DNA from: Alphaproteobacteria bacterium
GTDB lineage: Bacteria; Pseudomonadota; Alphaproteobacteria; GCA-2731375
Direction: 5' to 3'
NCBI GenBank assembly: GCA_030746295.1
Contig: JASLMY010000100.1
Span: 1-16,788 of the forward strand
DNA length: 16,788 nt
Each line of letters begins with the position of its first letter. The stretch's first letter is position 1. Positions 1,480 to 3,208 of this stretch are shown in pieces. The notes under the pieces are model-generated. The model ran no database searches, was not told the origin of the DNA, and saw nothing but the letters and a program-made list of their open reading frames with translations. Made by a program: the position numbers and the translations under genes.

Positions 1480-1508
1480 TTGAAAAGCCCGCTCGCCGAC
1501 CATATTTT
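1480..1508 (+). promoter_or_regulatory. Sigma70-type promoter for the riboswitch transcript
   Basis: TTGAAA (1480-1485) is followed by 17 nt and TATTTT (1503-1508), close to the TTGACA-17-TATAAT consensus. This predicts a start near 1515 and a 5' leader of about 340 nt that contains the GEMM-I aptamer and ends at the coiled-coil gene. Confidence 0.6.
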
Positions 1509-1515
1509 TCGAGGT

Positions 1516-1536
1516 GAAGCCATGTAGCGTGGCTTC
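1516..1536 (+). other. Hairpin at the start of the leader (GAAGCCA / TGGCTTC)
   Basis: A perfect 7-bp stem (1516-1522 with 1530-1536) closes a 7-nt loop, right at the predicted 5' end of the leader transcript. It may protect the 5' end of the RNA. No terminator T-run follows. Confidence 0.4.
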
Positions 1537-1583
1537 TGTGGGTCGAATTTCCTCGGGCGGGCGCGTCGGCGTCCAAGGGCCGA

Positions 1584-1676
1584 GGCCCCACGAAAGGGCA
1601 AACCGTCGGTAACGGCGGGACGCAAAGCCACCGGCCGTCATTCCCCAACGGAAAACGGTAGCGGGGCCGCCGAATG
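1584..1676 (+). ncRNA. Cyclic di-GMP-I riboswitch (GEMM-I aptamer)
   Basis: The sequence follows the GEMM-I pattern closely: CACGAAAGGGCAAACC (1589-1604), GGGACGCAAAGCCACCGG (1617-1634) and GGTAGCGGGG (1657-1666), then a 3' end GCCGAATGG, all as in the Vibrio cholerae Vc2 aptamer. A closing stem GGCCCC/GGGGCC pairs 1584-1589 with 1663-1668. One arm is CCGUCG-GUAA-CGGCGG (1603-1618), six pairs capped by a GNRA loop. The second arm pairs CCG with CGG (1631-1633, 1656-1658) and CCGU with ACGG (1635-1638, 1648-1651). Aligned to Vc2, the specificity base G20 falls on G1597 and A47 on A1624, with identical spacing of 27. A G at that place is expected for c-di-GMP rather than the cGAMP variant. It lies in the leader of the coiled-coil gene. 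Confidence 0.93.
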
Positions 1677-1853
1677 GAGACCCGAGATGAGGAATGCTGC
1701 AAGAACAACGTCGGCGTCGTTCCACCCCTCCCCACTCGAACTCTCCGCCTCGGTGATTACCGAAATCGGACGGGCATTGCCGTGCCCCAATGTCGCCCCG
1801 CCGGGCGGCCGGGCCACGTCATGCCCAGCGTTCTGACAACGGGAGATCCGGAC
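1677..1853 (+). promoter_or_regulatory. Leader between riboswitch aptamer and start codon (probable expression platform)
   Basis: There is no convincing gene in this stretch. It can fold into a stem CATTG/CAATG (1775-1779, 1788-1792) extended by GGG/CCC after a 3-nt bulge, followed by a very G+C-rich self-complementary stretch to about 1815. No U-run follows these stems, so intrinsic termination is not obvious. UCUCC (1742-1746) could pair with GGAGA (1842-1846) in the ribosome binding site, which would allow translational control. This pairing is short and only suggestive. Confidence 0.3.
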
Positions 1854-2441
1854 ATGGAACATGTGAACGAACTACAAGCCAGGGTTCAGGCGGCAACTGA
1901 GTCCCTGGCAGACCGCAAGGAACAACACAAGGAGCTGCGTGAGACCCTGCAGCAGCTGCAGGCCGAGAACACCCGGCTCGCCGAGGAGAACCAGGGTTTT
2001 CGCGGCGAGATCGACGGCATTCGCCTGGAAGGCGAAAAGGCCGAGAGCGAGTGCGAGCAGCTGAGGACCGAAAACAAGCGGCTGATCGCCGACAACCAGC
2101 GCCATCGCGACGAGCTCGACCGTTTCGATACCGAGAGGCGGGTTCTCAACGAAGACCGCGATCAGTTGAACGCGCTCCTGGAATCGCTGGTCCGTGCCGT
2201 CGAGATCGACGCTTCGGCGGACGACGAGGTCGAAGAGCCGTGCGTGGTCGAGATGGCGGAGGTCGTCGCCAACGGGACCACCGGCTTGGCGATCATGCCG
2301 CCGGCCTCGGTACCTCAGCCCTCGGCGGTTGTTTCCGCCATGCGCGACAAATATCATATGCCCGAGGTCGAGGACGTCCCGAACGGCAACGCGCGCAAGC
2401 TGATGGACAAGATCAAGGAACGGATCGAAGCGCAGCGTTGA
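1854..2441 (+). CDS. Unrecognised coiled-coil protein under a c-di-GMP riboswitch
   Basis: I do not recognise this 195-residue protein. Residues 1 to about 115 form an almost unbroken, highly charged heptad-like coiled coil (repeated LQAEN, LRTEN and LNEDRDQL segments). Then comes an acidic patch near 120-130, a Pro/Ala/Val-rich linker around 145-160, and a short amphipathic helix at the C-terminus (ARKLMDKIKERIEAQR). No signal peptide or membrane segment is visible, so it is probably a cytoplasmic scaffold or adaptor. The ATG at 1854 is chosen because GGGAGA (1841-1846) precedes it by 7 nt. In-frame ATGs at 1674 and 1821 lack a ribosome site, and the first lies inside the aptamer. A c-di-GMP-controlled gene would be expected to act in surface behaviour, motility or the cell envelope, but that is inference. 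Confidence 0.8.
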   Translation: MEHVNELQARVQAATESLADRKEQHKELRETLQQLQAENTRLAEENQGFRGEIDGIRLEGEKAESECEQLRTENKRLIADNQRHRDELDRFDTERRVLNEDRDQLNALLESLVRAVEIDASADDEVEEPCVVEMAEVVANGTTGLAIMPPASVPQPSAVVSAMRDKYHMPEVEDVPNGNARKLMDKIKERIEAQR

Positions 2442-2500: not shown

Positions 2501-3208
2501 ATGTTAGACATTGCTGGCGACGCGTCTCGCGCGTTCGAGGTTCTAGTCGAGGGTGGAATCGCCATCCTGCCGATGGATATCGGCTATTCGGCGATCGGCG
2601 GCTCGGAAGCGGCACTAGCGCGGATATTTCAGGCCAAGCGGCGCGCGGCGAACAAGCGCAACGCGATGGTGGGCGACGACGAGATCCATCGCGAGGTTCA
2701 CATCTTGGACCAGCGCGGTCGCGACATCGTACGCGCGCTCACGGTCGACAACGATCTGCCGCTGGGCGCGATCGCGCCCTGCCGGATGGGCCACCCCCTG
2801 ATCGCCAAGCTGACGCCCGCGACACGGGCCGGCAGCCTGGTATCGGATACGGTGGCGATGCTTCTGAACGCCGGGCCGTTTCACGCCGAGATCAGCCGCC
2901 TCAGCCGCGAGCGGGAACATCCGCTGTTCGGCTCGTCGGCCAACCTGTCGTTGTCGGGCACCAAGTTCCGGGTCGAGGACATCGAGCCCGAGATCCGCGG
3001 CATCGCCGACATTTGCATCGATTACGGCCTCAGGAAGTACCACCTCTACCGCGCTTCATCGACGCTTCTGGACGTCGCGACGCTGGAGGTCGTGCGCTAT
3101 GGCGCCTGCTTCGAGCTGATCGCCGAGGTCTTGCGCCGAGACTTCGACGTCGAGCTGCCACGGCCCGGACCGGGACATCTGACCGATCTCTTGAGCGATG
3201 TGCTCTGA
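2501..3208 (+). CDS. Divergent YrdC/Sua5/YciO-domain protein
   Basis: The YrdC domain binds ATP and, in TsaC/Sua5, makes threonylcarbamoyl-adenylate for tRNA t6A. The 235-residue product keeps several family marks: a lysine/arginine patch AKRRAANKRN (45-54), SSANLSLSG (145-153, the SAN-x-SG motif) and SSTLLDV followed by VVRYG (186-201). The usual N-terminal PTDT-x-YGLG motif is changed to PMDIGYSAIGG (24-34), losing its threonines. It is therefore more likely a specialised paralogue than the housekeeping t6A enzyme; its substrate is unknown. The ATG at 2501 follows AAAGAGG after only 3 nt, a tight spacing. It lies 59 bp after the coiled-coil gene, so the two may share the riboswitch transcript. 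A 6-bp inverted repeat (2461-2466, 2477-2482) in the gap has no T-run. Confidence 0.8.
   Translation: MLDIAGDASRAFEVLVEGGIAILPMDIGYSAIGGSEAALARIFQAKRRAANKRNAMVGDDEIHREVHILDQRGRDIVRALTVDNDLPLGAIAPCRMGHPLIAKLTPATRAGSLVSDTVAMLLNAGPFHAEISRLSREREHPLFGSSANLSLSGTKFRVEDIEPEIRGIADICIDYGLRKYHLYRASSTLLDVATLEVVRYGACFELIAEVLRRDFDVELPRPGPGHLTDLLSDVL

Follow-up and report, generated by a model that had tools for sequence, protein, structure and literature searches.

A c-di-GMP-I class aptamer ahead of a short open reading frame and a coiled-coil protein gene in an alphaproteobacterium

The window analysed here is the whole 16,788-nucleotide stretch of an alphaproteobacterial contig (JASLMY010000100.1, assembly GCA_030746295.1). 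On its + strand a sigma-70-like promoter (TTGAAA-17-TATTTT, 1480-1508), already proposed in the initial annotation and retained here as a consensus match only, precedes a predicted 9-bp leader hairpin (1516-1536; fold of 1515-1600, z -2.69, window only), a c-di-GMP-I (GEMM-I) aptamer (1588-1675), a Shine-Dalgarno GGAG (1676-1679), a 49-codon open reading frame (ORF) from ATG1687 (1687-1836) and an ORF for a 195-aa coiled-coil protein (1854-2441) with its own Shine-Dalgarno GGGAGA (1841-1846). A Sua5/YciO/YrdC-family gene (2501-3208) follows on the same strand, 59 nt downstream of the coiled-coil gene, and is possibly part of the same operon. A search of 1380-2560 gave two promoter-like sites, consensus matches only, which both lie on the + strand upstream of the aptamer, with 0.1 expected in shuffled sequences; from the aptamer to ATG1854 the + strand showed none, and it had no terminator-like site anywhere in the interval searched. 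The coiled-coil gene is probably co-transcribed with the aptamer. A 9-bp hairpin (TTGTTTCGA/TCGAAACAA, 1438-1460) located between a CoA-transferase gene and the promoter is terminator-like on the - strand. Antisense ORFs across the 1480-2441 region were discarded as mechanical.

Among the Rfam covariance models, RF03167 matched positions 1588-1675 (+) with 63.1 bits (gathering score 59, E 4e-13); this is the best match of its clan, and two lower-scoring overlapping matches of the same clan, including the RF01051 score, are left out of the Rfam output for the window. A lineage model (R1), a covariance model constructed from 32 aptamers of related genomes with the window left out, recovered the same stretch with 88.6 bits (E 2.7e-23) as the sole match below E 0.08 in 240,401 bases, and in its alignment 7 of the 18 structure pairs had both sides changed yet the pair kept in some sequences. 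RF01051 was over its cut-off (35 bits) in 51 of the 52 matches of the 15 relatives described below. The covariance-model score, which the initial annotation had named as the test of its GEMM-I assignment, bears that assignment out through RF03167 and R1, with RF01051 seen for the relatives only, and the GNRA-capped arm (loop GUAA) and the 27-nt spacing between G20 (1597) and A47 (1624) were recovered as well. At the level of sequence the presence of a c-di-GMP-I class aptamer at 1588-1675 is confirmed. Sub-threshold Rfam matches to Actinomyces-1 and sR38 in the window were put down to chance.

In the Vc2 aptamer of Vibrio cholerae, G20, A47 and C92 are the contacts of c-di-GMP, according to the available text of PMC4744006. 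The window carries this canonical set (G1597, A1624 and C1670). Position 47 was A in all 72 parsed aptamers of the 74 examined, which comprised the window, the full set of 52 matches from the nearest order and 21 from elsewhere in the class (only part of the class matches was taken); L113, L114 and L121 were dropped from the set since the core pattern failed. The name c-di-GMP-I-GGC (RF03167) presumably denotes a variant pocket with G at the A47 position, and the consensus of the model (GCGAAGCC) has G where the window (GCAAAGCC) has A. Thus, although RF03167 is the top-scoring model and its cut-off is exceeded, the label is misleading for the window because the pocket reads G20/A47/C92. The literature found on c-di-GMP-I-GGC, available in part, contained nothing about the biology of the variant.

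GEMM aptamers of the cGAMP type carry A at position 20, a change linked to cGAMP recognition. The window has G1597 at this position. A G20A mutant binds cGAMP (PMC7288161, as far as its available text goes). Within the set A20 was found in two aptamers (L064 and L116) and U92 in nine, and the window has neither; the core pattern also gave two C at position 20 and one A plus two unread letters at position 92, of which both C and the A were recognized by eye as pattern slips. The ligand of the window aptamer is read, from its pocket letters, as c-di-GMP. That the aptamer would be a variant with another ligand, of the c-di-GMP-I-GGC or the cGAMP kind, is highly improbable: its best clan match is RF03167, against which stand A47 and G20 in the window and the passing of RF01051 by nearly all matches of the relatives. 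The A20 aptamers are L064 1501-1591 (G015) and L116 1501-1627 (G233); L064 precedes a Sel1-repeat gene, and G015 also has G20 copies. Of the nine U92 aptamers (L057, L063, L068, L069, L088, L089, L093, L095 and L112; 9 of 74), which possibly represent a recurring lower-affinity version, six precede flagellin genes.

The GGAG at 1676-1679 abuts the aptamer 7 nt before ATG1687 and occupies the same place in relatives; both this Shine-Dalgarno and ATG1687, directly 3' of the aptamer, were overlooked in the earlier sequence reading. An ATG was found at 8-17 nt behind 67 of the 74 aptamers, versus 170 of 1168 control windows, and across relatives the P1 stem is directly followed by a purine-rich Shine-Dalgarno. 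The 5' strand of P1 with its outward extension, CCACG (1588-1592), is predicted to pair with CG(AA)UGG (1671-1677) and thus with the GG of the Shine-Dalgarno. When P1 was forced, the pairing probability between extension and Shine-Dalgarno was 1.00 in the window versus 0.69 for shuffled flank, and pairing of the Shine-Dalgarno GG with the 5' flank averaged 0.75 versus 0.51 for shuffled flanks over the set, exceeding 0.5 in 50 of 67 aptamers (7 of the 74 were dropped as unparsed); the Wilcoxon p of 1.7e-7 for this pairing overstates the difference because the rows are related. The main exception are the eight response-regulator loci, where pairing between Shine-Dalgarno and P1 flank is poor (0.00-0.49). 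P1 did not form in unconstrained folds of the window leader, so that concealment of the Shine-Dalgarno by a ligand-stabilized stem is seen as pairing above that of shuffled flanks yet is absent from free folds. The aptamers of the set would probably act as translational switches of the OFF type, a mode in which ligand-stabilized P1 hides the start and which is consistent with flagellin control; the off switch Cd1 precedes a flagellar operon (PMC4744006, in the part available). An upstream anti-P1 arm, suggested by pairing of 1537-1542 with 1587-1592 (0.49-0.76) in a short fold of 1515-1675, was dropped, as it was gone in longer folds and reached p <= 0.05 in 8 of 72 aptamers, with 0.95 for the window.

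The AlaRS of the window is closest to those of a single alphaproteobacterial order, at 67-70%, and the best four of 289 class genomes by AlaRS (G006, G013, G007 and G027; 68-70%) all belong to this order. Each of the 15 genomes of this nearest order carries 2-5 such aptamers (52 in total), 26 of which, in 13 genomes, are over the RF03167 cut-off; the survey thus documents for a single order c-di-GMP-I switches placed before flagellin, signaling and other genes. With stricter filters a match was detected in 25 of the 289 alphaproteobacterial genomes of the class sample, and 14 control genomes searched for the aptamer gave no match. The initial annotation had described these RNAs as much less common in alphaproteobacteria than in gamma- and deltaproteobacteria and Firmicutes; the counts obtained here refer to the alphaproteobacterial class alone. 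By sequence the window aptamer is nearest to L087 (6 differences), at a small hydrophobic protein locus. Next come L093 (8) and L081 (9), from the only two loci of the order where a short ORF precedes a ParA-type gene, and L110 (9), where a ParA-type gene follows without such an ORF. A literature search joining c-di-GMP riboswitch, Alphaproteobacteria and flagellin returned a biofilm roadmap alone, and one joining GEMM, riboswitch and Rhodospirillales returned only work on cobalamin. Pairs of aptamers ~0.5-2.7 kb apart occur at G018:C347, G023:C54, G007:C91, G012:C397, G218:C238 and G187:C3, and at the first four of these one switch precedes a flagellin gene and the other a Sel1-type gene.

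Grouping by eye of the first ORFs behind the 52 aptamers of the order gave flagellins (about 11), response regulators (8), Sel1-type proteins (7), one further locus (L083) whose ORF starts like the Sel1-type ones and closes within 30 codons, a 76-aa protein (8 instances), small hydrophobic proteins (10), a PilZ-like protein (1), ParA-like proteins preceded by a short ORF (2) and others (4); for a few of the small proteins the automatic choice of start had fallen on a different ATG. One representative per target group, in some cases from a genome beyond the order, was compared with Pfam: flagellin, Response_reg, Sel1, Peptidase_C93 (L115) and AAA_31/CbiA (the ParA-like protein of L110) were over their cut-offs, the PilZ match of L107 was under it (21.7 versus 22.5 bits), and no Pfam family was assigned to the representatives of the PilZ-like (L082), 76-aa and small hydrophobic proteins or to a 243-aa protein of G005. 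The expectation that GEMM-I RNAs are usually found at motility or surface genes agrees with these motility and signaling targets (flagellin, response regulator). The C93 peptidase family includes LapG; aptamers precede genes for C93 transglutaminase-like peptidases at L104, L115, L117 and L119, assigned by Pfam for L115 and by eye for the rest. At L046 and L048 (G005 and G008) they precede a protein of 243-248 aa with a signal-like start, L046 being without a Pfam family.

The conserved slot behind the switch is filled in the window by ATG1687 and not by ATG1854 of the coiled-coil gene. Control of the latter would therefore be indirect, because the switch's own ribosome-binding site drives the tiny ORF first. 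The idea advanced in the initial annotation, that the coiled-coil protein is an output of c-di-GMP, survives as plausible control at one remove, through the short ORF, and is not favored as a direct output. By placement alone the 49-codon ORF has the features of a relay upstream ORF, as it starts at the switch and ends at 1836, 17 nt ahead of ATG1854. Its composition is not coding-like (GC at codon positions 1-3 of 0.55/0.69/0.71 versus 0.72/0.35/0.81 in the coiled-coil gene) and an open frame of its length is unsurprising (1041 of 2000 shuffles); support for the relay reading thus comes from position and from the relatives, and the statistics of the window itself add none.

These properties also suit a different explanation, in which the switch governs the short ORF region alone, this region being a relic of a lost target or a stand-in for it (a ParA-like or a small membrane protein), and the coiled-coil gene simply comes next and is little affected. 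Besides the slot start at ATG1687 and the composition of the 49 codons, a locus in G018 points in this direction, where an aptamer that likewise ends in GAAT|GGAGAC precedes a 63-codon ORF whose next neighbor lies on the opposite strand. The lack of a promoter-like site between aptamer and ATG1854, the short distance from the stop of the ORF to the coiled-coil start and the fact that six relatives keep a ParA-like gene downstream of an ORF of this kind argue against it, and we regard it as possible though somewhat doubtful.

The six relatives show the order aptamer, short ORF, ParA-like gene, with short ORFs of 59 (G025), 24 (G026), 28 (G115), 26 (G224), 24 (G402) and 11 codons (G313); the stop of that in G115 overlaps the start of the next gene, and the ParA-like proteins of G402 and G313 were judged from their first residues. 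They belong to 13 ParA-like loci, of which four open directly behind the aptamer (G242, G328, G140 and G187) and three (G163, G260 and G030) leave a gap of ~85 nt from aptamer to gene and lack an ATG in the slot. Seven loci, the window among them, interpose a short ORF before the main gene, an arrangement that would give this riboswitch class a testable second mode of action. The literature joining c-di-GMP riboswitch and ParA included, judged by titles, none on this arrangement. At L126, L127, L130, L131, L133, L134 and L135 the gene after the ParA-like gene encodes a product with the conserved motif SLTAG(L/I)(L/M)ARKGEA, and antiporter-like membrane genes are also found downstream at several loci of this type, as judged by eye.

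The three loci with the ~85 nt gap are compatible with an aptamer that acts directly on the coiled-coil gene, by long-range pairing within the spacer or by transcription attenuation, with no part for the short ORF. Such a mechanism would agree with the 150-nt stretch that follows the aptamer (1677-1826), whose predicted fold is better than that of shuffled sequences (z -2.56). Neither form of it is favored by the rest of the data, since the + strand of 1380-2560 has no terminator-like site and the Shine-Dalgarno of the coiled-coil gene is as accessible as with shuffled spacers, 0.41 of which hide the window site as well; direct action is accordingly rated as quite unlikely. An anti-Shine-Dalgarno within the window's leader ORF is unsupported by the same figure. 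Across all seven loci with a short ORF, equal hiding of the site occurred in a fraction of 0.00 of the shuffles for G402 (of 150), 0.04 for G025 and 0.15-0.70 for the remaining five, to which the window belongs. At three loci of one order (L142, L127 and L146, in G402, G224 and G313) the short ORF contains CACC/CUC stretches complementary to the ribosome-binding site of the ParA-like gene, and among these hiding exceeds shuffles only in G402.

Taking these observations together, the reading preferred here, with a probability of roughly one half, is that a canonical c-di-GMP-I riboswitch controls translation from ATG1687 and that the 49-codon leader ORF relays this control to the coiled-coil gene. 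Transcription of the riboswitch mRNA would start at about position 1515. With c-di-GMP bound, P1 would form, its outward extension would pair with the GG of GGAG (1676-1679) and initiation at ATG1687 would be turned off; at low c-di-GMP the Shine-Dalgarno would be free. Ribosomes translating the 49-codon ORF would end at 1836, 17 nt before ATG1854, and the coiled-coil protein would be made from the same mRNA mainly during translation of the leader, by re-initiation or by protection of the mRNA from Rho. A comparable arrangement of riboswitch, short ORF and main gene is that of ppe2 in Mycobacterium tuberculosis, a gene for which translation of the upstream ORF that follows a B12 riboswitch is essential (PMC11260477, in its available part); that system differs in its ligand and in that its leader is translated, whereas the ORF of the window is known by placement only. 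A literature search joining riboswitch, c-di-GMP, leader peptide and translational coupling found nothing.

The window switch resembles RF01051 and V. cholerae Vc2 in its core, GNRA-capped P2, pocket and placement before a ribosome-binding site, and departs from them in that the Shine-Dalgarno directly abuts P1 and the switch is separated from the main gene by a short ORF. With the GEMM-I switches of the same order it shares aptamer sequence and the spacing of Shine-Dalgarno and start codon; those mostly open a longer target gene directly, whereas the second gene of the window encodes the coiled-coil protein.

This 195-aa protein belongs to a rare uncharacterized family. The AlphaFold model (pTM 0.39) consists of one long helix (residues 2-122, 121 residues), which resembles any coiled coil, a low-confidence linker and a conserved C-terminal tail with predicted short helices at 156-167 and 178-194. 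A search of Pfam and NCBIfam gave no family over its cut-off, in line with the description of this gene as one of no known family; the nearest curated family is ZapB (PF06005), likewise a short coiled coil, with 30.4 bits versus a cut-off of 31.5, a match whose best stretch covers residues 2-52 and leaves the conserved tail outside. Five homologous protein clusters, on contigs of 1.1-2.0 kb, were identified among 5.8 billion proteins by a cluster search that requires shared 5-residue words and of which one run scored the best 7995 candidates. No full-length relative was present in the 15, 385 and 26 genomes searched (overlapping sets), and pattern scans of genome and viral contigs found no aptamer before another member of the family; the initial annotation had proposed to check whether the family recurs downstream of related aptamers, and no second such locus was seen among the aptamers of relatives.

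The locus places a protein family that lacks annotation in a likely c-di-GMP regulon. From its shape alone the protein may be an envelope or surface scaffold, and only by analogy with what other loci carry in this slot it may take part in cell-pole or flagellar positioning. A broader proposal would hold that in Alphaproteobacteria the c-di-GMP-I switch repeatedly acts via a relay ORF of unselected sequence and that the coiled-coil scaffold fills the slot of a ParA-like positioning ATPase as a new c-di-GMP-repressed organizer of cell poles or flagella; we consider it rather unlikely. Weak matches of the coiled-coil protein in genomes (17.8-23.8 bits in G013, G188, G209, G270, G329 and G388, and 36.6 bits in G010) were treated as composition because only coiled parts were covered, and an M protein chain (9mmx_C, 22.2 bits) was dismissed likewise. 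A short coiled-coil ORF cut by a contig end (L141 4808-5113, G025) lies beside a leuB-like gene on a piece with no aptamer; it matches the first 52 positions of the window protein with 24.5 bits and is possibly a remote relative.
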